Of a stretch of DNA of 64,000 nt, positions 4,395-58,467 are shown piece by piece. The stretch covers positions 1 to 64,000 of the forward strand of contig JADGDQ010000003.1 in NCBI GenBank assembly GCA_016744805.1, in the 5' to 3' direction. Within the stretch, counting starts at the first letter, position 1. Every line of letters begins with the position of its first letter. Source of the stretch: Sulfurovaceae bacterium. GTDB lineage: Bacteria; Campylobacterota; Campylobacteria; Campylobacterales; Sulfurovaceae. The notes below the pieces were generated by a model, which did no database searches, had not been told where the DNA came from, and was given only the letters and a program-made list of their open reading frames with translations. The translations under genes were made by a program, and so were the position numbers.

Positions 4395-6187
4395 AATGAT
4401 TGTCCTATCTGAAATCCAATTCCATATTGAGAGGGGTCATTTACATTCATCCCTACATCTAATTTAATGGGTCCTATGGGGGTTACATATCGTACACCAA
4501 ATCCTGCTGAACTCAAAATATCACCTGTAAAATCATAACTATTGATTGTAAGCATAGTATTATCATTAAAAACTGCTCCATAAAGATTTCCAACGATAGG
4601 ATAGTTAGCCTCTAATGAAAGATTTGCCATAGTAAAAGCACCATCAAGACCATATCGTTTAGGAGAGATAATAATACCTACTTGGTTATATCCATACGCA
4701 CGGTTACTATATGACCCTCCTCCAAAAAAGAGTTTAGACTCAGGAAGTTCATTTGCCATCTCATCAACAATCCCTGCTTTTAATACACTTGAAAGAGTTA
4801 ACTTTGTAATTGTATAAATCAATCTCCCCTCTAAAGAGTACTTTAGATAACTACTAGAGTCTCCATCATAGTCAAGACCATACTCAACCATACCAGCCAA
4901 ATAATAGCCATCTTTGGGGTTTAACTTGGAGTCTCTACGGTCATAAGTAAAACTTAAAAATGGATAGGCAAGAAGAAATGTCCCATCATTAATTGACTGA
5001 ATAACCTTATCTTCATCAACATTATCTCTAAGTGATATATCAATATTTTCCAAAGCAAAACCAGCACGAATATGTAACTTTTCATTTGTATATGCCAAAT
5101 AAGCCTGAACATACCCTTTCTCTTCCATAAAGCCTTCATACTCTAAGTTAGAGTATCCTATCTTACTAGCTAAGTCAATAGAGTAGTTTCCAACAGTAAA
5201 AAAGGCAGGAACTATATGCCCAAACTCCAAAAGCTGTTCAAGCTTAGTATAACTAGAGCGTATTTTGAGTTTTTGTGCATCACCAAAGAAGTTTTTTCGA
5301 GTGTATTCTGCTCTAATACCAGCCCCCACATTAGTATCATAACTCAAACCACCCATAAAATAGTTCTTTTTTGTAAGCTCTTTCACCTTAATATCAATGG
5401 GAACAATATTATAATATTTTCTATCATATCGTATACTCACCATATCAAAAGCATCAAGATTATAGAGTGATTTATAACTCTCTTGAATCATCTCTATATT
5501 AAATCGTTTTCCCTCTCTTGCTCTGACTCGTGATACAACAACATCCTCATCAATTCTCTCTAACCCTTTTGTTGTTACTTTCCCAAAAGTACAGTATCCC
5601 CCTTTGGTCAAGATAAATCGCAAATCAACCTCTGCTTTATCTAAGTCTACATACGCCTTAGTATCCAAATCATAACTACAATACCCCTCTTTCAAAAGTG
5701 CCTCTACAATAGAATTTTTGATATTAATAAAATCTTTTGCTCGAAATATATCACCAGAGTTAAGCGTAATAAGCTGGGTAATATTATAATCACTAGAGAT
5801 ATTTATATCTTTAATCCGTACAGGCTGATTCTCTTTGATATTTACAAGAACCCATGTATCATTTATATCTACACTACAATTAGCATCATAATACCCTTCT
5901 GACTCATAAAATGCATGCAAAGAGTCGCTAAGTGTAGGAAGGAGTTTATCTTTGATTTTGGGTATATCACTTTTCCAAAACTCTATAAAACTTGGAGTAT
6001 CTACCCCCATAGCCTCTTGGAGTTGCACCTGCTCTATACCTTCAAACCCTCTAAATGCAATATTATGTGAAGCATGAACTATCTTTTTGTCTTTTTCAAA
6101 AATAGCATAAGATTTTTGAGTAGTTTCGTTGGTATCAGCAAAGAGGAGTATAGAAAAGATTAGAATGAGTAAAAACTTATAATACAT
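4391..6187 (-). CDS. tamA: TamA-like Omp85 outer-membrane protein
   Basis: This 598-residue protein has a signal peptide (about residues 1-18, ending LLFADTN) and POTRA-type domains up to about residue 270, including GDIFRAKDFINIKNSIVEAL and VTTKGLERIDEDVVVSRVR. A 16-strand Omp85 barrel follows and contains SFTYDRRDSKLNPKDGYY and FGVRYVTPIGPIKLDVGMN. It ends in phenylalanine, the usual BAM recognition residue. BamA is normally larger, with five POTRA domains, and is not paired with TamB, so TamA is the better name. It is the first gene of a tamA-tamB unit that may continue into the beta-propeller gene. Confidence 0.87.
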   Translation of the reverse strand: MYYKFLLILIFSILLFADTNETTQKSYAIFEKDKKIVHASHNIAFRGFEGIEQVQLQEAMGVDTPSFIEFWKSDIPKIKDKLLPTLSDSLHAFYESEGYYDANCSVDINDTWVLVNIKENQPVRIKDINISSDYNITQLITLNSGDIFRAKDFINIKNSIVEALLKEGYCSYDLDTKAYVDLDKAEVDLRFILTKGGYCTFGKVTTKGLERIDEDVVVSRVRAREGKRFNIEMIQESYKSLYNLDAFDMVSIRYDRKYYNIVPIDIKVKELTKKNYFMGGLSYDTNVGAGIRAEYTRKNFFGDAQKLKIRSSYTKLEQLLEFGHIVPAFFTVGNYSIDLASKIGYSNLEYEGFMEEKGYVQAYLAYTNEKLHIRAGFALENIDISLRDNVDEDKVIQSINDGTFLLAYPFLSFTYDRRDSKLNPKDGYYLAGMVEYGLDYDGDSSSYLKYSLEGRLIYTITKLTLSSVLKAGIVDEMANELPESKLFFGGGSYSNRAYGYNQVGIIISPKRYGLDGAFTMANLSLEANYPIVGNLYGAVFNDNTMLTINSYDFTGDILSSAGFGVRYVTPIGPIKLDVGMNVNDPSQYGIGFQIGQSF

Positions 6188-6348
6188 AATATACGAAACC
6201 TTTTTTATAAAAAATATTTACATTTTAACTAATCTTTGATGATAAGTAAGTGTTAAATTAAAAATGATTTCAATAAAATAGAGTTCTCATAGCTATAAAA
6301 GATAATTTACTTTGCTATAATCCTCTTAGATAAAATCAAGGTATTACA

Positions 6349-8313
6349 ATGTCCCCATTTGCAATTCAACTTATAAACGGTTTTCTTATCTCAGATCTTG
6401 AAGAAGAAGATTTAGATAGCTTTGAGAAACTTCAAGAATTAAATGCCCTAGAACAGATAGAGCAGTTATGGAGACTCCGCTCACTCTACCGTGTAGGAGA
6501 ACTCTATCTAGGCAAAGATGGTCGAGGGTTTGTAGAGGCTCAAACCAAAGAACAAAAAGATTTGCTTGTAGAACCTGATAACTTGGGTGATGGTGGCGTA
6601 GGTGATATAGTAGTTGCCAAACGGATTATTGCACGAAGAGGAAGAGCCAGTGGCAAAGTAGTACTCGTAGTAAGCCAAGCACACCCTTTTAGTATAGTCT
6701 ATACCTACCGTGATGCGCAGGGGCGATTTGAGATTCGTAATATCAAAACCTCTCTTCCTACCCATGCCGTAATGGAGGGTATGGACTTAAAGGCGTTTAA
6801 GATAGGTACTGTTATGCAAGTTGATAGCACTACAGATAAAGTTATATCTGTATTAGGACATTTAGATGACCCTAAAGTAGATGAGAAAATCTCTCTTGCA
6901 CTCTACCAAAGAGAAGATGAATTTCCTGAAACTTGTATAGACCAAGCCAAAGCTGTACCAAATAGAGTTGACAAAAACGATTATCCCAACCGTGTAGACT
7001 TAACCAGTCTGGACTTTTGTACAATTGACCCAGTGACAGCCAAAGACTTTGATGATGCAATCTACTTTGATACCAAAAGCTATACACTCTATGTAGCTAT
7101 TGCCGATGTGAGCTACTATGTAGAGTACTTTACCCCCATAGACAAAGAGGCAAAAAAGAGAGGATTTACCACTTATCTGCCTCATAAATCATTCCCTATG
7201 CTTCCACGACAACTTAGCGAAAATCTCTGTTCTTTGAAACCAAGCGTAGATAGATTAGCCTTTGTAGCCAAAATCAAACTCGATAGAGACTCCCTGCAAC
7301 CACTCAAAGAGGAGTTTTTTGAGGCAGTTATCCACTCAAAGAGACGCTTTAATTATGAGCAGATAGATAGTATCATAGAGCAAAACGGAGCCAAGAGCGA
7401 GGGGGTAGAGGCTCAGATACTCACCTATCTACTGCCTCTTTACAAAATTACCCAAGAGCTTAGAGCAAATAGACTCACAAGCGGTTTTGACTTTAGAAGC
7501 GAAGAGATACGCGTGAGTATAGACTCTAGCCATCTTCTGCAACACACCACCATAGAGACTAGCACCCCCTCTCACTCACTTATAGAGGAGTGTATGCTCC
7601 TAGCCAATAGAGCCTCTGCCAAAAGATTTATGACCAACAAAGAAGAGGAGGAATTTGGGATATTCCGTATCCATGAGCCACCACAACTTAGCAAAACAGA
7701 AACCCTCTTAGAAGAGCTCTCTACTATAGGTCTTTTTGTAGAGAGCTACCAAGACTCCCCTACCCTTATCCGTGCAATACAAAAAGAGGCATCCAAACTA
7801 GGCTTAGAGAGCGAAGTAGATGCTATGATTATCAAATCCCTCCGCCGTGCCTCCTACTCTCCTAGAAATGTAGGACACTTTGGTCTAGGGTTTACCCACT
7901 ACAGCCACTTTACATCCCCTATTAGACGCTACAGCGACCTTATACTCCACCGCCTTATCAAAACACAACTCACCCAAGACAAAGAAGAAGAGGGCTATCT
8001 CTTGCGAAATATAGAGCCTCTTTGTATCAGAGTAAGCGACCTAGAGAGAGAAAGCACCAAAGCCGAATGGGACTTTAGAGACCGCAAATTTGCACGATGG
8101 GCAGAACAAAACAGTGGACTATTTTTTGATGCAGAAGTAATAGAAGCAGGAGAGAGTGCTAAAGCCATACTTATAGGAGATATACAAGGCATAACCGTCC
8201 ATATCAAAGCCGACAACAGAGTATTATTTGAGAAGATAAAAGTTATGATTACGGAAGTAGATATTGCTATGGCTACTATTATGGCAGAGGTAGTAACCCA
8301 AGGAGAGAGCTAG
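6349..8313 (+). CDS. rnr: Ribonuclease R (RNB-family 3'-5' exoribonuclease)
   Basis: This 654-residue protein degrades RNA from the 3' end. The RNB catalytic core starts near residue 225, with the metal-binding aspartates in TAKDFDDAIYF (D233, D235 and D236 region). It continues through VSYYVEYFTPIDKEAKKRG, LPRQLSENLCSL and the signature HFGLGFTHYSHFTSPIRRYSDL. The upstream region carries cold-shock-like OB folds, and the C terminus has a short S1-like domain. The length is close to that of other Campylobacterota RNase R proteins and shorter than the E. coli enzyme. It stands alone on the plus strand, divergent from tamA, with a 161-base gap for its promoter. Confidence 0.93.
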   Translation: MSPFAIQLINGFLISDLEEEDLDSFEKLQELNALEQIEQLWRLRSLYRVGELYLGKDGRGFVEAQTKEQKDLLVEPDNLGDGGVGDIVVAKRIIARRGRASGKVVLVVSQAHPFSIVYTYRDAQGRFEIRNIKTSLPTHAVMEGMDLKAFKIGTVMQVDSTTDKVISVLGHLDDPKVDEKISLALYQREDEFPETCIDQAKAVPNRVDKNDYPNRVDLTSLDFCTIDPVTAKDFDDAIYFDTKSYTLYVAIADVSYYVEYFTPIDKEAKKRGFTTYLPHKSFPMLPRQLSENLCSLKPSVDRLAFVAKIKLDRDSLQPLKEEFFEAVIHSKRRFNYEQIDSIIEQNGAKSEGVEAQILTYLLPLYKITQELRANRLTSGFDFRSEEIRVSIDSSHLLQHTTIETSTPSHSLIEECMLLANRASAKRFMTNKEEEEFGIFRIHEPPQLSKTETLLEELSTIGLFVESYQDSPTLIRAIQKEASKLGLESEVDAMIIKSLRRASYSPRNVGHFGLGFTHYSHFTSPIRRYSDLILHRLIKTQLTQDKEEEGYLLRNIEPLCIRVSDLERESTKAEWDFRDRKFARWAEQNSGLFFDAEVIEAGESAKAILIGDIQGITVHIKADNRVLFEKIKVMITEVDIAMATIMAEVVTQGES

Positions 8314-8681: not shown

Positions 8682-9704
8682 TTAATTAATCGTATAATTC
8701 ACATAAAACTTAATTTTGGTTCTTTTTTGTGGGAGTGGGTAGTTAGAGTATGCTATACGGATGACTTGGAGGGTGTTATTGTCTAATGAGCTATGTCCCA
8801 TTGATTTTTCTAGTTTGAGTTGGGTTATGTTGCCATTTGGATGGAGATAAAAAGAGACTACATTGACTCCCTCTTGACCCATTCTAATAGCAGACTCAGG
8901 GTATCCATTGCGACTAAGAGCTTTTTGGGTGATAGAGTGGATTCTTCCTAGGTTGGCTTTGAGGAATTTTTTCTCTTGTGAGGAGTAGCTATCAAACTCT
9001 TTGCCATAGAGTTTATTAATAAGATTGGTACTTGATGATTGTGTTAATTGGCGTGAGCGTGTTGGTTTGTAGGATGTGCCACTCTCCATTAATGAGTTAG
9101 CTAAAGGAGATTTATACTCTTTGAGTCGTCTTTGTTGCTCTTTGAAGAGCTTTTTTTCCATGGCTTTGAGTTCTTTAATTCGTTTTTTTCTTGCTTCTCT
9201 TTTTTTCGCTTCTTCTTTTTGTTTCTCTTTTTTTAATTGAGCTTTTTTGCGTTTTTCTTGTTTTATTTTTTCTTTTTGGAGTTTGGCTTTTTTTCGCTTC
9301 TCCTCTTTGAGTTTTTTAATTTTTTGTTTTATACTCTCTTCTTTTTCTTTTTGCTTTTTTAGTTTCTTTTTTAGTGTTGTATTGTTCTCTTGTGTGGACT
9401 CTTTTACAACAAGGACTTTTTTGTTTGTAAGGAGTTTTCTTTTGGCTTGGGGGGTGTTTTCTATCTTTTTTAGAGGTGCAGGTGTTTGTATAGATTTTTG
9501 TTGTGGCAAGGTTTGAGGTAACTCTTTTTTGGGTACAACTATAGGTTTTGGAGGTGATTTAAATTGTGTTAAATCAAGCGTAATTGCTTTTGCATCTTTT
9601 GGTGGAGGGAAAAAGATAATTTTTTCTTTAGTAAAATATAAATAAAGGTAGACAATTATCAAATGCAAGAGTATAGAGCTTAGGAATGCTTGAGTTGTTC
9701 TAAT
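8682..9704 (-). CDS. TonB/TolA-like energy transducer, apparent ATT start
   Basis: The C-terminal 80 residues contain GVNVVSFYLHPNGNITQLKL and TLQVIRIAYSNYPLPQ, typical of a TonB C-terminal domain, which contacts outer-membrane receptors. The middle (about residues 85-190) is an extremely Lys/Glu-rich coiled coil, as in TolA, spanning the periplasm. The first conventional start (TTG at 9668) would leave only about 10 hydrophobic residues. The open frame upstream adds IRTTQAFLSSILLH, which completes the membrane anchor. An AGGAG ribosome binding site (9711-9715) sits 6 bases before an ATT codon at 9704, and an in-frame stop follows upstream. I therefore place the start at ATT, giving 340 residues. 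No exbB/exbD is adjacent. TolA is an alternative name. Confidence 0.72.
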   Translation of the reverse strand: MRTTQAFLSSILLHLIIVYLYLYFTKEKIIFFPPPKDAKAITLDLTQFKSPPKPIVVPKKELPQTLPQQKSIQTPAPLKKIENTPQAKRKLLTNKKVLVVKESTQENNTTLKKKLKKQKEKEESIKQKIKKLKEEKRKKAKLQKEKIKQEKRKKAQLKKEKQKEEAKKREARKKRIKELKAMEKKLFKEQQRRLKEYKSPLANSLMESGTSYKPTRSRQLTQSSSTNLINKLYGKEFDSYSSQEKKFLKANLGRIHSITQKALSRNGYPESAIRMGQEGVNVVSFYLHPNGNITQLKLEKSMGHSSLDNNTLQVIRIAYSNYPLPQKRTKIKFYVNYTIN

Positions 9705-52141: not shown

Positions 52142-53302
52142 TTATCCTGCTATCATCTGCATAGCTTTGCCCACAGCCAAGCCTCCAAAAGTTCCTAAAA
52201 TGTATCCCATCATAGCCATCAATACTCCTATAGGAATAAGTGACTTAGAGTAAGCTCCTGCAAGTATTGGAGCAGAGGCTACGCCTCCTATATTTGCAAG
52301 CGAAGCAACTCCTAGTGTAAATAAATCCAACTTAAATATCTTGGCAAACACAAGCATTATTATCCCATGAATAGCAATAATCATAAATCCTGCCACTACA
52401 TACAAAGGTGCCTGTGTAAGTTCTGAAAAATTAGCACGAGAAGCAATCAGAGCCACCATAAGATAGAGCAAAATATTACCTAGTTCACTCGAACCTGCCA
52501 TTTTACCAAAAGGAGTCATAGCAAAAATTATCCCTATAATTGTAGTAATAATAACAACCCAAGTATTTGTTGTTACAAAATTATTGATAGGAAGATAAGG
52601 AGCAATAGTTTGGCTTATAACAGAAACCAAAAGAGCCATACCAAGAAGCAAAAAAAGTGAATGAAACGAGATAGCTTCTGTAGTTTTTGCCAAAGAGAGC
52701 TTTTGACCCACTGTTTCAAGCGTAGATGTATCAGCATTACTCCAATGGTTAAATCTATGTGCCAAAGGTACAAGAGCCAAAAGAAGCATAATATATACAG
52801 AGTAATTTATAGAATCTATAAGCAGAGCATAGCCCATCTTGCTATCTGGCACAGCTAATGCACTCTGAATAGCTACCATATTAGCAGTCCCCCCCATCCA
52901 GCTTCCACACAAAGCCGAAAAAGCTCTCCATGCATCAGGTTCAAAGAGATGTTCTAAAAAAGCAAACATCCCAATAAATCCTATGGCTATACTAACTGTA
53001 GCTAGCAAAAAAGTAAAAACCATCTTTATACCCAATGCTCTAATCTGACGCAAATCAGCATGTAATAAAAGCAAAAAAATCATTGCAGGTAAAATATTAG
53101 ATTTAACACTCTTATAAGTAGCCGTAATCTCTACACTCTTTTGCCATACTCCTAGCGTAGAAAATACCATAGCAGTAAAATAGATAATTACAATAGCAGG
53201 TAAATACTCAAATATTTTCCATTTATAATACTCTTGTGCATAAACAACCAACGAAGCAATTACAATAAGCACAGTAATATATGCAAATCCATTTTCTATC
53301 AT
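52142..53302 (-). CDS. DUF819-family membrane protein
   Basis: This 386-residue protein has about 10-11 membrane segments. Conserved stretches SALCGSWMGGTANMVAIQSAL and GVASLANIGGVASAPILAGAY are typical of DUF819/YjcL proteins, thought to be transporters of unknown substrate. Its ATG overlaps the stop of the HpaII-type endonuclease gene by 4 bases, so it appears to be the last gene of the restriction-modification string. Confidence 0.85.
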   Translation of the reverse strand: MIENGFAYITVLIVIASLVVYAQEYYKWKIFEYLPAIVIIYFTAMVFSTLGVWQKSVEITATYKSVKSNILPAMIFLLLLHADLRQIRALGIKMVFTFLLATVSIAIGFIGMFAFLEHLFEPDAWRAFSALCGSWMGGTANMVAIQSALAVPDSKMGYALLIDSINYSVYIMLLLALVPLAHRFNHWSNADTSTLETVGQKLSLAKTTEAISFHSLFLLLGMALLVSVISQTIAPYLPINNFVTTNTWVVIITTIIGIIFAMTPFGKMAGSSELGNILLYLMVALIASRANFSELTQAPLYVVAGFMIIAIHGIIMLVFAKIFKLDLFTLGVASLANIGGVASAPILAGAYSKSLIPIGVLMAMMGYILGTFGGLAVGKAMQMIAG

Positions 53303-54366
53303 GACTTAAACCTAATTTGTAAATTGAGTTTAAAATAATATTTATCATTCTCTTTGTAAATATCAAACATTTTATATCTAGTTGAACTTGGACTCTCTAG
53401 CTTAATATTGTCAATCAAATAAGTATCAACAATACTTTTAAAATAAATTAAATCCAACAGATATACTGCACCTGTTTTTGTGACTATAATAATACCACCA
53501 TTAACTTCATTGATTCCATCCCAAGCTTCACTTGCTCTCATGCCAAATGTTACAGCATTCGCAAAATCACCTATTTTCTTTTTGTAATAAATTTCAGAAG
53601 TTGTATCATTAATGATAGATACCAATAATTTTTTAATATCTTTTTCATTGTCTTCATAAGATAAAATTAACATTTGAGCTAAAATTTTATCTAAATCAGA
53701 ATCAATCAGTTTTAAATTATTAGCAAAGAGAGTACTTTCGGTTTGAATAAACTTAAAAACTGCTCCATTTGATTTTAGAAAGTTACATCTATCTAATAGC
53801 TTTTTTCTACCCTTAATAATATTATTTTGTTTCATTATTTCATCATCTATATTTTCTATTTCATAAATAAAATTTGTATGCCTAGAGGCGTTTAAAAGTG
53901 TAGGAGGGCTTCCTAGATTAGATTTAATATTGTATGTTAAATTTATACTCATTTCTCTTTTTTTATCCAATACTCTAGCACTTAAGTCACCCTTAGTTTT
54001 TGAGCTTCCTTTAAACTTTTTACCATCAAGAAAGTCATTAATGAAAGGTTCTATTTCCTCTATCTCAAATGAACCTTTTGATTTTTTGTGAGTCATAATT
54101 TTTTCTAATAACAACTCTTTTTTCTCTTTGATAGTATCAATTAAATAGATATTTTCAATATTATTAGCTCTTATCTTAGTGATATTTTTATCTTTTTGAA
54201 TTTTATATCTTCTATTATCTGCGAGGTATATCTCTCTAATTTCAAAAGTATTAGTATTTATCACTTTTAGATGCGCATCAGTTATTGCTAAATTTGGATA
54301 AATCAAAAGTGTCAAAAAAGTATAAAGTTCTGACCATTCACCTCTATTAAATCCCATAATTTTCAA
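53299..54366 (-). CDS. HpaII-family type II restriction endonuclease
   Basis: This 355-residue protein has the family opening GFNRGEWSELYTFLTLLI and the family end TPSSTRYKMFDIYKEND-type text with YYFKLNLQIRF. HpaII cuts CCGG. It overlaps the methyltransferase gene by 20 bases, forming a methyltransferase-endonuclease pair on one strand. The target CCGG is inferred from the family. I did not assign catalytic residues. Confidence 0.85.
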   Translation of the reverse strand: MKIMGFNRGEWSELYTFLTLLIYPNLAITDAHLKVINTNTFEIREIYLADNRRYKIQKDKNITKIRANNIENIYLIDTIKEKKELLLEKIMTHKKSKGSFEIEEIEPFINDFLDGKKFKGSSKTKGDLSARVLDKKREMSINLTYNIKSNLGSPPTLLNASRHTNFIYEIENIDDEIMKQNNIIKGRKKLLDRCNFLKSNGAVFKFIQTESTLFANNLKLIDSDLDKILAQMLILSYEDNEKDIKKLLVSIINDTTSEIYYKKKIGDFANAVTFGMRASEAWDGINEVNGGIIIVTKTGAVYLLDLIYFKSIVDTYLIDNIKLESPSSTRYKMFDIYKENDKYYFKLNLQIRFKS

Positions 54367-55453
54367 ACTCCGCTAATTGTTTATACATATATTTTGCTAA
54401 CTCTTCTATCACTGGTATTGAAACAGAATTGCCTAATTGCTTATACTGTTGTGTTTCACTTACTTTTTTTGGAAATGAAAAAGTATCTTTGCCATCTTCA
54501 ACAAAGGCATAATCTTTAAAGCCTTGCAGTCTTGCCCATTCATTTGGAGTCATAACTCTAATACCTTGGTCATTGATAGGTGTCTTTTTTGTACCAAACA
54601 TCATCCCATAATATTCTGGTTTTTCTTGTAAGACTAAATTTCGCTCTTTTCCACTTCCACCTGTGGCTAAAATAGTATTTGAAATGGGGTTTTCTCCAAT
54701 ATTTACTACTTTGTAGCCAAAACCATTGCCTTTAGATTGATGGTTGGCTTTGTGTTTTTCTAATGTTTTAATATACTGTTCTGATAAGTAATATTTGGCA
54801 GATACATTCTCTTCTAACAACTCATATAAATTATTAAAAATAGGTTTATCTTTTTTAGTAGGGAGTTCTTTAAATTTGTAATTATTAGGTACTAAATCTT
54901 TTCTAAATCCCATAATATAAGTCCTAACTCTTTTTTGTGGCAGTCCAAAATCTACAGTTTTTCTTAAAAATGATTTTGAATCATAGCTTAGAAGACCATC
55001 AATATCTTCTACTCCCACAATTTCATATCCCAACTCTTTGACCAAAGTATCTATAATAATTTTAAAGGTTTTCCCTTTATCATGCCGAAAGAGTCCTTCT
55101 ACATTTTCTAATAAAAAGGCTTTGGGTTGTGTGCGTTTGAGTATATCAGCCACATCAAAAAAGAGTGTACCTCTTGTGCTATCTTCAAAACCTCTCTTCT
55201 CTCCTGCAATAGAAAATGCTTGACAAGGAAAACCAGCAAGTAAAATATCATAAGATAAATTTTGAACTTTTTCTTTAAACTCTTCACTTCTAACATCATT
55301 AAGTGGATTTTCTCCATAAAGATGTTCATAAGTCATACAAGCATATTTATCAATTTCTGCTGATAAAATATTTTCATACTCCCCTACCCGTTCAAATCCT
55401 TTTCTCACCCCACCAATCCCACAAAAAAGATCTATAGTTTTATATTTTGTCAT
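54347..55453 (-). CDS. DNA cytosine-5 methyltransferase (HpaII partner)
   Basis: This 368-residue C5 methyltransferase has motif I DLFCGIGGVRKGFE, motif IV with the catalytic cysteine in GFPCQAFSIAG, motif VI ENVEGLF, motif VIII QKRVRTYIMG, and motif X QLGNSVSIPVIEELA. All are intact. It is paired with the HpaII-type endonuclease, with the endonuclease gene starting inside its 3' end, so CCGG is the expected site. It lies one base after the other C5 methyltransferase gene. Confidence 0.93.
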   Translation of the reverse strand: MTKYKTIDLFCGIGGVRKGFERVGEYENILSAEIDKYACMTYEHLYGENPLNDVRSEEFKEKVQNLSYDILLAGFPCQAFSIAGEKRGFEDSTRGTLFFDVADILKRTQPKAFLLENVEGLFRHDKGKTFKIIIDTLVKELGYEIVGVEDIDGLLSYDSKSFLRKTVDFGLPQKRVRTYIMGFRKDLVPNNYKFKELPTKKDKPIFNNLYELLEENVSAKYYLSEQYIKTLEKHKANHQSKGNGFGYKVVNIGENPISNTILATGGSGKERNLVLQEKPEYYGMMFGTKKTPINDQGIRVMTPNEWARLQGFKDYAFVEDGKDTFSFPKKVSETQQYKQLGNSVSIPVIEELAKYMYKQLAEFENYGI

Positions 55454-55454
55454 A

Positions 55455-56429
55455 CTAGAACACCTTTTTTATTGCCAATGCCAAAGCATACGCCAAAGTA
55501 GGAGGCACAGCATTCCCCACCATCTTATATCCTGCACTTAAATTTTTGTAATAAAAAAGATGTTCATCAGGAAAACTCTGCACCCTAGCACATTCTCTAA
55601 TGCTTAGTCGCCTATATAAATCTTCATGACCCTCTACAAAGCATCGTTTATCTTTTTCTACAAGTTGCATTTTGGGGGCTTGTGGATGAAGTGGTGCATG
55701 TCGTCCTCCTGCTTGGATAGTAAATGATGGTTCATCCCAAGCCCTCACACGATTACGAGACATAAACATAGAAGAAAATCCACCTAGCATATATTCATGA
55801 TTTAGGAATTTACATTTATCAAGAGTATAATTTTTTTCATCTGCTGAGACCACATTATCTTTTAAATCCCAAATAATGTCTTTCAATGTCAATTTTTCTT
55901 TTTGTCCTTTTGGAAACTCAAACTTTATATTTAAATCATTTCTAAAACCCACAAAAAATATTCTCTTTCTATCTTGTGCCACCCCATAATCTTTAGCATT
56001 AAGCATCTCAAAAGACAAATCATAACCACTATCAATAAAATGATTTTTGATATTTTCCAAAGCTTCACTATGCTTTGAAGCCAACATACCAGATACATTT
56101 TCAGCCAAAAAAAACAGAGGCTTCTTATCTCGCAACACACGAATAAACTCAAAAAAGAGTTGCCCTCTATCATCATCTATCCCACGAGATTTACCAGCCT
56201 CACTCCAACTCTGACAAGGAGGCCCACCAATCAGCCCTAGAGTTTCAGGAATATCCTTCGATGGAATTTGCGTAATACTCCGTCTATCCAAAACCGTATC
56301 AGAAAAATTCTTCTCAAAAGTTTCCCAAATTTCTTTATCATACTCATTTGCCCAAATGGTTTGAAACCCTGCTTTTTTGAAACCAAGGTCTAAACCACCT
56401 GCTCCTGAGAATAGGGAGATTATTTGCAT
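55455..56429 (-). CDS. DNA cytosine-5 methyltransferase (NgoPII-type partner)
   Basis: This 324-residue C5 methyltransferase has motif I SLFSGAGGLDLGFKKAGF, motif IV with the catalytic cysteine in GGPPCQSWSEAG, motif VI ENVSGML, motif VIII QDRKRIFFVG, and motif X GNAVPPTLAYALA. It starts immediately after the AbiJ-like gene stop. By family it should protect GGCC, matching the NgoPII-type endonuclease two genes upstream. It is distinct from the HpaII-type methyltransferase that follows. Confidence 0.9.
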   Translation of the reverse strand: MQIISLFSGAGGLDLGFKKAGFQTIWANEYDKEIWETFEKNFSDTVLDRRSITQIPSKDIPETLGLIGGPPCQSWSEAGKSRGIDDDRGQLFFEFIRVLRDKKPLFFLAENVSGMLASKHSEALENIKNHFIDSGYDLSFEMLNAKDYGVAQDRKRIFFVGFRNDLNIKFEFPKGQKEKLTLKDIIWDLKDNVVSADEKNYTLDKCKFLNHEYMLGGFSSMFMSRNRVRAWDEPSFTIQAGGRHAPLHPQAPKMQLVEKDKRCFVEGHEDLYRRLSIRECARVQSFPDEHLFYYKNLSAGYKMVGNAVPPTLAYALALAIKKVF

Positions 56430-57311
56430 TTAATCTTCTTTATTTTTTGCTATCAAATAATTCACAAATGCTGAACAGCTTACAAGCATATATTTAGCCT
56501 CTTCAAATGAAGTTTTTAACTCTTCTTTTGTGTGTCCATGTCTAATTCCATCTTCTTTACAAGTCCAACCATAGAGATTTATCATTGAAGTTTTAAACTG
56601 CTTATTCAAATCTATATCTATAATTTTTAAACAATTTGCTAAATCTGTCTCTTTTCCTGTGATAATCTTAGCTACAGACTCTACAGCAGTAATAGACTCT
56701 TTAATAGAGTTTTGATAATCAGGATTTTCTCTATCACTTAAAAGCTCTAAGGCATTTGATAGATGTTTTCTTGCAGGGGTATACTTACAACATAAAGCCT
56801 CTTCAACTTCTTTAATTTCAACCTCATCAATAATTGGAGCAATATAACTATCTATAAATCTATATCCACTCATCTCTTCTTCTAAAATCTGATTTACCTC
56901 TTCTCTAAATTTAGTAGAAATTTGTTGTTCATGATATATTTCTGATATATATTCTATAAAGTCATAAACTTCATACCATTCAAAATTAAAATATCTTTTT
57001 TTCAAATCTTTTTTGATGTTATTTTTTGAATATGATAAAGGTTCAATAGAGTCTTTTAAAAATTGGTCATAAATTTTTAAAACAAAATATTTATCATTTT
57101 CTTGCCTAAGTAATCCACCCTCTGATTCATAATAATTATCACGATCATCTGAATGCAAGACCATAGAGTGCTTATATCCTATAAGAGTATCAATAAATGT
57201 TATTTTTATTTTATTCCATAATCTACTTTTTAATCCATTATCCATACTATCAATTTGAAATGTATCTCGTACTTCTATAAAACCATTTCTTTCAGAAAAT
57301 CTTTTTCTCAA
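56430..57311 (-). CDS. AbiJ-like (abortive-infection) protein
   Basis: This 293-residue protein opens with FSERNGFIEVRDTFQIDSMD, matching the AbiJ N-terminal domain type 4 (FSERxG...QIDSMD). The C-terminal third contains ALCCKYTPARKHLSNALELL, SIKESITAVESVAKIITG and DGIRHGHTKEE, the pattern of a helical C-terminal abortive-infection domain with RxxxH-like text (RHGH), possibly a HEPN-type nuclease motif. It lies between the NgoPII-type endonuclease and its methyltransferase with gaps of 11 and 0 bases. A defence role is likely; mechanism unknown. Confidence 0.8.
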   Translation of the reverse strand: MRKRFSERNGFIEVRDTFQIDSMDNGLKSRLWNKIKITFIDTLIGYKHSMVLHSDDRDNYYESEGGLLRQENDKYFVLKIYDQFLKDSIEPLSYSKNNIKKDLKKRYFNFEWYEVYDFIEYISEIYHEQQISTKFREEVNQILEEEMSGYRFIDSYIAPIIDEVEIKEVEEALCCKYTPARKHLSNALELLSDRENPDYQNSIKESITAVESVAKIITGKETDLANCLKIIDIDLNKQFKTSMINLYGWTCKEDGIRHGHTKEELKTSFEEAKYMLVSCSAFVNYLIAKNKED

Positions 57312-57322
57312 TTTTTCTCCAT

Positions 57323-58162
57323 TTATATTCTAAACCCTAACAAAACCCCATCAACCAACCTCACAGGATTATTAGGATTCTTTATTTTAACTTCTCTCAC
57401 CTCAACACTCTCCATATTCTCAATAATCTCTCTATCATTTTTTGGCATACTATTATATTTTTCTTTTGTCATCAAAGCTATTAACTGAAATGATTTACTC
57501 TCATCATACTCATAGAGATAATCAAAAGTTTTATTTGGATTTTCAATATGCCACATACCTCTAATTCTAAGGTCTGTAATACCTAAAGGGTCTATTTTTT
57601 TGACTTTTCCTAGTTCATTTGTGGGTGTGAATTCTACATTTTCTATAGCGTTGATGCCGTTTGATATAGTATCCTTTATCTTCTCATAAGTCTCTTTATC
57701 TGCACAAAAACAATCTCCATAGACAAGCCAAAGAGATTTTAGATTTTTGGTGGCTTTGGGAATATGACCAATGGCATAGAGCATATCTTTTTGTGTCCAT
57801 GTTTCACACTCTTTACACGCTTTGGTTATCATTGTGCTAGAGGCATAGAGTTTGTCTTTGGGGTAAGAGCTATTTAGAGCTATGGCTGAATTTTTACTCT
57901 CTAGCTTTTTTATCTCTATAGCATCGCTATTTTTGAGGATTAAATCAGGTGGATTATTTTTATTTCCTTGATATGAAAATATCTCTTGAAATATTTCTAA
58001 TTTTTGAGCTGTTTCTTTAAAAGTATTGGCAAAGGCATTTTGGATATAGTTTTCTAAACCCTCACCCATATTATTAGCTCTATTGTTTCCACTTGTAATT
58101 GTTTGAATATTATATTGGTAGTTATTGACGATATTTATAAACGCTTTGAGTGTATTTGACAT
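57323..58162 (-). CDS. NgoPII-family type II restriction endonuclease
   Basis: This 279-residue protein matches the NgoPII family in length and in the opening region (NNMGEGLENYIQNAFANTF). A PD-(D/E)xK-like site is seen in NNPPDLILKNSDAIEIKKL. CKECETWTQKDMLYAIGH follows. NgoPII cuts GGCC. It is the first gene of the restriction-modification string. The recognition site is inferred from the family. Confidence 0.85.
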   Translation of the reverse strand: MSNTLKAFINIVNNYQYNIQTITSGNNRANNMGEGLENYIQNAFANTFKETAQKLEIFQEIFSYQGNKNNPPDLILKNSDAIEIKKLESKNSAIALNSSYPKDKLYASSTMITKACKECETWTQKDMLYAIGHIPKATKNLKSLWLVYGDCFCADKETYEKIKDTISNGINAIENVEFTPTNELGKVKKIDPLGITDLRIRGMWHIENPNKTFDYLYEYDESKSFQLIALMTKEKYNSMPKNDREIIENMESVEVREVKIKNPNNPVRLVDGVLLGFRI

Positions 58163-58209: not shown

Positions 58210-58302
58210 TTAAAAGCCTAATTTAGCTCTAGCTTCATCAATGCTATATTGTTTATTATTCTCTTTCTTAATTTCTTGAATATCTAAAGGTATAGTTTGC
58301 AT
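58210..58302 (-). CDS. Small open reading frame (30 residues), unknown
   Basis: The minus strand encodes 30 residues beginning MQTIPLDIQEIKKEN and ending SIDEARAKLGF, then a stop. A weak purine-rich site (GGATAGG) precedes the ATG. The end resembles small antitoxin or regulator fragments but is too short to assign. It lies 47 bases upstream of the NgoPII-type endonuclease gene on the same strand. It may be a leader peptide, a truncated antitoxin, or chance. Confidence 0.4.
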   Translation of the reverse strand: MQTIPLDIQEIKKENNKQYSIDEARAKLGF

Positions 58303-58413
58303 CACCTATCCTTTGTAAAAAATAAACTTTATTATATCTACTTAAAGCTAACCTATAAATTTGATTTAAAAAAATATTGAGAAAGTTCTATTATGATAGG
58401 TGATTGGTATATA

Positions 58414-58450
58414 GAAAAAAAGTCTAACTCCCAAAGAAATTTGGGAGTCA
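58414..58450 (-). terminator. Rho-independent terminator of the molybdoenzyme operon
   Basis: On the minus strand GACTCCCAAA pairs with TTTGGGAGTT across a short loop, followed by AGAC and six or more T residues. It begins about 18 bases after the stop of the large molybdoenzyme gene. It is one of the clearest terminators in the window. Confidence 0.8.
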
Positions 58451-58467
58451 AATGAAGTGTGTAAAAA

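Follow-up and report, generated by a model that had tools for sequence, protein, structure and literature searches.

An AbiJ-type gene in a Sulfurovaceae genome as the probable occupant of a defence-gene slot between a type II restriction endonuclease gene and its methyltransferase gene

In the genome of a Sulfurovaceae bacterium, a gene for an AbiJ-type protein lies between the gene of an NgoPII-family restriction endonuclease (R) and that of its methyltransferase (M), which raises the question of whether the three genes form one dedicated device or whether the AbiJ gene is a guest inside a restriction-modification (R-M) pair. The original prediction favoured the former and proposed co-regulation, with an abortive response that backs up restriction. 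Its description of the locus, including the coordinates and the frame, was accurate, as the AbiJ gene is separated by 11 bases from the endonuclease gene and abuts the methyltransferase gene. In the window, which is the whole stretch of 64,000 nucleotides that was analysed, five consecutive genes occupy positions 58162-53299 of the minus strand, with gaps of 11, 0, 1 and -20 nt (Table 1). The reading that we prefer, with a probability of about 0.68, is that AbiJ belongs to a large set of unrelated defence cargos found at one fixed position, or slot, between R and M, with R and M serving as homology arms.

The R-M genes of the window belong to recognisable families. The NgoPII endonuclease domain of R scores 385 bits against a cut-off of 25, and the first R-M pair should act on GGCC because M is closest, among solved structures, to M.HaeIII (1dct; E 2.1e-129). 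The window M is also 72-85% identical to the slot methyltransferases of its relatives. Directly after M, in the same orientation, follows an HpaII-type R-M pair (53299-55453) that was absent from the original prediction, and for which CCGG would be the expected target of the family. The 64-kb window has 12 GGCC sites where 57 would be expected and a single CCGG where 10 would be, and since GCGC and GATC are likewise rare, this scarcity is consistent with, rather than diagnostic of, restriction at GGCC and CCGG. The proposed co-regulation gains from the packing of R, AbiJ and M, whose common direction and gaps of 11 and 0 nt fit a single transcript. It gains little from the promoter-like site that sits between the upstream terminator-like hairpin and R, which is weak because 34 such sites were found against 29.6 +/- 5.9 in shuffles. 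Just upstream of R, a 31-aa frame (58210-58305, minus strand) resembles by eye the ends of a 75-aa antitoxin-like protein that lies inside the decayed R of another locus (L152, 6553-6780), and it looks like a leftover toxin-antitoxin gene.

Table 1. Features of the window and of the slot in related loci (R, NgoPII-family endonuclease gene; M, C5 methyltransferase gene).
Feature	Locus	Position	Strand	Remarks
R gene: NgoPII-family restriction endonuclease, 279 aa	window	57323..58162	-	PF09521, E 1.4e-115; bounds the slot on the left
Slot cargo: AbiJ_NTD4 + HEPN protein (PDC-S32), 293 aa, TTG start	window	56430..57311	-	PF18863, PDC-S32, HEPN fold as modelled
R257-H258 codons, invariant pair of the HEPN site	window	56538..56543	-	31/31 sequences, alignment A5
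M gene: HaeIII-type C5 methyltransferase, 324 aa	window	55455..56429	-	PF00145, E 1.1e-95; bounds the slot on the right
Second C5 methyltransferase, 368 aa, partner of the HpaII-type endonuclease	window	54347..55453	-	PF00145, E 1.1e-78; 1 nt after M
HpaII-type endonuclease, 355 aa	window	53299..54366	-	PF09561, E 1.6e-73; overlaps the gene before it by 20 nt
Promoter-like site upstream of R	window	58331..58359	-	TTTATA-17-TATAAT, 10/12 consensus match
Terminator-like hairpin of the upstream gene	window	58423..58452	-	13-pair stem and T tract; divides that gene from the R-AbiJ-M operon
nSTAND1 + Mrr-nuclease protein	L037, L057			
613-aa protein without Pfam or PADLOC match	L060, L072	L060 9561-11402	+	scanned as the copy in L038
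PtuA-like ATPase	L094			
43-aa remnant of PtuA-like ATPase	L059			48% identity over 42 residues
Thoeris-like TIR genes with PDC-M50A/B	L041, L058			
AbiTii	L053			
428-aa protein without curated Pfam or PADLOC match	L056	9864-11150	+	
Trypsin-like PDC-S45	L068			
Pycsar cyclase + Cap15-like 2TM effector	L075			
AbiU/AIPR	L077			
CBASS cyclase + SLATT effector	L088			
CBASS cyclase remnant	L083			
IetA-like ATPase set	L084			
PDC-S26 cargo	L152			R remnant
HEC-06/GmrSD cargo	L154			R remnant, M intact-looking
NADAR + PRTase-CE	L181			R remnant
Nested R-M system between R remnant and M	L182	5048-8526		
Nested R-M system between R remnant and M	L045	2776-6447		
Nested R-M system	L184	1278-4986		R and M both remnants

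The AbiJ frame is intact: it opens with a TTG at 57311 on the minus strand, closes with a stop at 56430 and comprises 293 codons, and a GGAG, read by eye, lies five bases ahead of the TTG. Residues 4-173 belong to AbiJ_NTD4 (PF18863; E 4.9e-26, 92.5 bits against a curated cut-off of 34), and the PADLOC model PDC-S32 covers residues 3-290 (E 4.2e-92, 306.9 bits). The HEPN part is invisible to sequence comparison alone (Pfam Abi_C, E 0.16; no credible sequence match in the PDB), and the structural assignment draws on an AF2 model (pLDDT 84.4, pTM 0.82) for which 30 viral-contig homologs were used. When VIA-align was run on the chains that Foldseek ranks highest, residues 174-293 of the model matched 1ufb, which we take to be a HEPN protein (Z 13.1, rmsd 2.6, 111 residues aligned), and the HEPN protein 2hsb (Z 12.5, rmsd 2.8, 110 aligned). 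Four entries titled HEPN are among the best chains, with Z of 12.5, 11.9, 11.7 and 11.6, values to be read alongside the weak E-values of Foldseek itself (0.44 for 2hsb) and the middling Z that helical bundles reach by chance; AbiA, AbiV, Csm6 and RnlA stand lower in the ranking. As modelled, a C-terminal HEPN fold at residues 174-293 is confirmed, and the protein would share both this fold and the domain order of the AbiJ family (AbiJ-NTD4 followed by HEPN).

The active-site motif of HEPN ribonucleases is Rx4-6H. An RHGH motif had been put forward as a HEPN-like site, and one half of it held: its R257 and H258 are invariant in the 31 sequences of the alignment, and the second histidine, H260, is not. 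R257 and H258 are adjacent, unlike the Rx4-6H spacing and unlike three other AbiJ-type relatives, which carry R-x5-H, with five residues between the two, at the same place. Set against this rule, the AbiJ family found here is best described as a HEPN fold with a shortened motif. A canonical HEPN motif was dropped for this adjacency, while the reading of a HEPN-like action was kept, and the protein is predicted to be a ribonuclease.

Whether the position of AbiJ is special was addressed by a census of NgoPII loci. The endonuclease was matched in 23 of 397 genomes of the phylum and in 34 of 398 of the order, in draws that overlap, and the census also took two viral contigs and the best 80 of 339 relatives, so that it leans towards R genes like the query. 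Collapsing the duplicates among 154 loci with an R match left 104 distinct R, many from metagenome-assembled genomes: 55 with an M at least 72% identical to that of the window, 32 with an M below this value and 17 without M downstream, 12 of which have M before R. Judged by record title or by the phylum searched, most of the 55 loci are Campylobacterota, and one is labelled Candidatus Marithrix. In 33 of them the slot is empty and R and M are directly joined (gap -4 to 15 nt), which makes the AbiJ gene a clean addition to a two-gene unit; in the remaining 22 an insert of 146 to 2753 nt lies exactly between R and M. The 31 more distant pairs with the same gene order contain no insert and no gap above 35 nt (22/55 against 0/31, Fisher p 1.4e-5, ignoring relatedness); a 32nd pair, L184, was omitted for its M remnant and nested R-M system, although it is otherwise like the clade. 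The window gene is thus an embedded, predicted defence gene for which the empty arrangement is also known. AbiJ itself was found in one of the 55 loci and different inserts in 21 others. As such, the survey of NgoPII loci for the same insert that accompanied the original prediction gave a single AbiJ and a slot filled in 22 of 55 loci with varied cargo, and uniqueness, which had been named as counting against the idea, applies literally to AbiJ in this sample while the arrangement generalises as a slot.

HpaII pairs served as a control for inserts, with matches in 15 of 397 genomes, several of which have M and R fused in one frame or present as fragments; these 15 genomes showed no clear defence insert, and they make a weak control. 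One decayed HpaII-type locus (L145/L150) holds a 253-aa open reading frame between pieces of M and R (L150, 688-1449, plus strand), a possible parallel to the slot inserts in another R-M family. In another case, one assembled genome (HLG_WM_MAG_06) carries two NgoPII R-M copies (L065 and L068) with M 93.9% identical in DNA, one slot being empty and the other holding the PDC-S45 cargo.

The 22 filled loci hold at least 17 unrelated cargo families (Table 1), a count in which the nested R-M systems of L182 and L045 are included as families and their methyltransferases fall outside the PADLOC scan. In the nested systems an HNH or NgoFVII-type endonuclease accompanies two C5 methyltransferases, or a 369-aa protein accompanies a single one. 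PADLOC models are matched at E<=1e-10 by 12 of the 17 families, whereas among 95 genes beside the R-M units no more than 15 do so, an upper bound because the results give family tallies only. The matches to PDC-S32, -S45, -S26 and -M50 are partly circular, because the PDC candidates come from an embedding approach; other models matched among the cargo are AbiTii, AbiU, CBASS, Pycsar, ThsB, PtuA, IetA, HEC-06 and PRTase, of which HEC-06 stems from the same approach. By their position in the slot, the 613-aa and 428-aa proteins are new candidate defence proteins. Relatives of the former, annotated as hypothetical, occur on Synechocystis and Klebsiella plasmids (L231, 4980-6740; L232, 4650-6341), and a search for a plasmid relative of the latter found none.

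The cargo is packed tightly against M. Packing was scored in 21 of the 22 filled loci (L045 omitted; R end set by hand in L181 and L182), and all 31 cargo reading frames, the 43-aa remnant of L059 included, run in the direction of the R-M genes. Coding sequence amounts to 0.88-1.11 of the gap in 20 of the 21 loci, and to 0.68 in L152. The last cargo stop falls -10 to +14 nt from the M start in every locus scored, nine of which show a 4-nt ATGA or TTGA overlap between the two, and even the remnants of L059 and L083 preserve an open frame that ends on the M start. Since M starts -4 to 15 nt after R in empty loci, the cargo assumes the position of R, and such packing suggests translational coupling of M to the cargo. 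R itself has decayed to a remnant in five of the 22 filled loci (L152, L154, L181, L182 and L045). In L154 an internal deletion has left a 65-aa open frame (8972-9169, minus strand) with about the first 39 and last 32 residues, and in L075 the R frame is broken near its end. In a further locus, L153, where M is missing downstream, an R.NgoPII remnant is followed directly by the gene of a DRT4 reverse transcriptase (5259-6972, plus strand; PADLOC E 4.4e-178).

Cargo and R-M genes have separate histories. On the M tree, which omits L045, L049 and L181 for their short or broken M, cargo presence changes at least 10 times compared to 16.7 in shuffles, with six changes forced by well-supported branches; cargo is therefore both clustered and repeatedly gained or lost, and the clustering means that the 22 filled loci are not 22 independent events. 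Closely related pairs carry unrelated cargos: three in L072, L094 and L041 (R and M 89-93% identical in DNA) and two in L057 and L056 (92-94%). In the pairs L072/L094 and L057/L056 (R and M 91-94%), identity drops at the R stop and resumes at the M start. Conversely, common cargo can be more alike than the R-M genes around it, at 86.8% against 76.4% for R and 75.5% for M in L037/L057, at 85.8% against 81.7% and 76.1% in L060/L072, and at 87.7% over 1038 bp against 76.6% and 72.9% in L041/L058. The filled L058 and the empty L080 stay collinear (about 89-91% identical) over about 9.3 kb ahead of the slot, where small breaks occur, and over about 6.8 kb beyond it, and 2185 bp present exactly at the slot in L058 are missing from L080. 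L050 has the same flanking order and an empty slot. Elsewhere, the flanks of the R-M unit vary between genomes.

On what we consider the simplest account, R and M may well be the conserved homology arms through which incoming DNA swaps the cargo by recombination and leaves the R-M pair undisturbed. No terminal repeats or target-site duplication were found at the slot, an absence that fits recombination without proving it. A mobile element or site-specific recombinase that targets the R/M junction and leaves passengers behind would account for the exact position, for the clean 2185-bp insertion of L058 relative to L080, and for bases associated with filled loci, whose signal is greatest over the final 22 nt of R and the opening 15 nt of M, with peaks at positions 6 and 15 of the latter (C at position 15 in 14 of 19 filled and 2 of 32 empty loci). 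However, the cargo lists hold no integrase or transposase gene (by eye and by family scans), the cargo ends are gene ends and not element ends, and direct words shared across the junctions of 18 loci average 5.8 nt compared to 6.4 nt in mismatched loci (inverted, 5.7 against 5.9), which is no longer than chance and led to rejection of transposon or site-specific insertion. The junction bases are not significant once relatedness is controlled, in a set whose five or six independent pairs cannot reach significance, and sliding identity differs between filled-filled and filled-empty pairs by at most +0.10 near the R end, where the signature may only reflect the ribosome-binding AAGG needed when M follows directly. 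A targeting element is therefore very unlikely. Somewhat less so, yet still doubtful, is a neutral landing site at which foreign DNA is tolerated and defence genes are common passengers, with neither arm exchange nor hostage effect. The lack of duplications and repeats, the remnants of L059 and L083, and the persistence of cargo beside a decayed R all agree with such a site, but the excess of defence models among the cargo over the flanking genes, the common direction of all 31 frames ending at M, the movement of the same cargo between diverged R-M pairs with borders at the slot, and the confinement of inserts to the gap while the flanks of the unit differ across genomes do not.

The idea closest to the original prediction is that AbiJ is held inactive by, or monitors, the R-M pair and fires when restriction is inhibited or evaded, in the manner of PrrC. 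The place of a HEPN protein gene in the middle of an R-M operon speaks for it, as do the published case of PrrC and the general linkage of HEPN genes with R-M systems, as described in the sources cited (PMC3710099, PMC12707154). The wider distribution of AbiJ argues the other way, since it is an ordinary, portable gene: a 51% identical homolog stands alone in another genome of the order (L043), beside genes read as ribonucleotide reductase and thioesterase genes, and others occur on a Leptospira plasmid, on an Aquicella plasmid and in 37 viral contigs, in two of which the gene lies between genes read as P2-type baseplate genes. In the flanking DNA available for these 40 loci (two plasmids, one cellular genome and 37 viral contigs), a comparison with the four R-M proteins of the window gave no match at E<=1e-5. 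Moreover, the slot takes at least 16 other cargo families, for each of which such a latch would need rebuilding, and with CBASS, Pycsar and AbiTii among the interchangeable occupants, a latch in the manner of PrrC that is peculiar to AbiJ becomes less plausible. With AbiJ in one of 55 slots, 21 other inserts and no R-M pair of this type at the 40 loci elsewhere, a special link between AbiJ and the R-M pair of the window did not hold up, and we regard the latch as unlikely. Under the preferred reading of an exchangeable cargo, AbiJ would, with good probability, act alone: the NTD4 domain would sense infection and the HEPN domain, through R257-H258, would cut RNA and so stop the phage together with the cell, as a further barrier after restriction at GGCC and CCGG. 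The R-M pair would supply a transcript and a mobile unit whose genomic neighbours change, and it might also slow the loss of cargo, because M must be made. It is conceivable, at clearly less than even odds, that the R-M pair helps to retain the cargo because M, which acts as antidote to R, follows the cargo and has its expression tied to it. The fuller version, an addiction-locked exchangeable cassette in which R and M are the arms and loss or truncation of the cargo threatens the cell, so that guest defences are retained, is more tentative still. The five filled loci with an R remnant indicate that cargo can outlive R, so addiction to R would not be the sole cause of retention, and with cargo and M remaining there, the cargo appears to be kept also for its own value.

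Embedding of defence genes in R-M loci is already known, and the accounts cited here describe isolated examples or multi-gene loci of type I. Guilt-by-embedding (Payne et al. 2024 preprint), the source of the PDC and HEC candidates (PMC12988326, PMC12255303), likewise concerns defence genes between the genes of another defence system; as far as these sources describe it, the present case differs in that one type II R-M position was followed over 55 loci, with empty and filled states, at least 17 families and swaps. Similarly, DarTG2 is a suicide system embedded between the R-M genes of a type I locus in E. coli EPEC (hsdS-[darTG2]-hsdR), and the site is described as a potential recombination hotspot (PMC12255303); that account gives two kinds of insert in a type I locus, compared to at least 17 families in a type II pair here. 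PrrC-EcoprrI has a HEPN-type RNase gene embedded in an R-M locus (PMC3710099, PMC12707154), which as described is of type I, with latching demonstrated and an ABC ATPase domain on the toxin. AbiJ lacks that domain, has two type II R-M pairs as neighbours in place of type I surroundings and, unlike PrrC-EcoprrI, occurs elsewhere without R-M genes of the window type. The 2013 survey, in the parts relevant here, links HEPN genes of at least 16 clades, AbiJ included, to R-M systems, mentions AbiJ-family 'solos' in an operon with an R-M system, and reports ApeA embedded in R-M operons of epsilonproteobacteria (PMC3710099). In the literature searched, with bioRxiv preprints outside its scope, no description was found of a single type II two-gene slot with such a range of cargo, and a search for PDC-S32 returned nothing. 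New here are the exact slot in a two-gene type II pair, the many empty and filled states and the natural swap pairs.

To conclude, the slot opens a test of how single defence genes move and why they settle inside other defence systems, and it can serve as a finder, as whatever occupies it is probably a defence gene. If the tentative addiction-locked cassette were true, the R-M pair would keep guest defences that would otherwise be lost from the genome.
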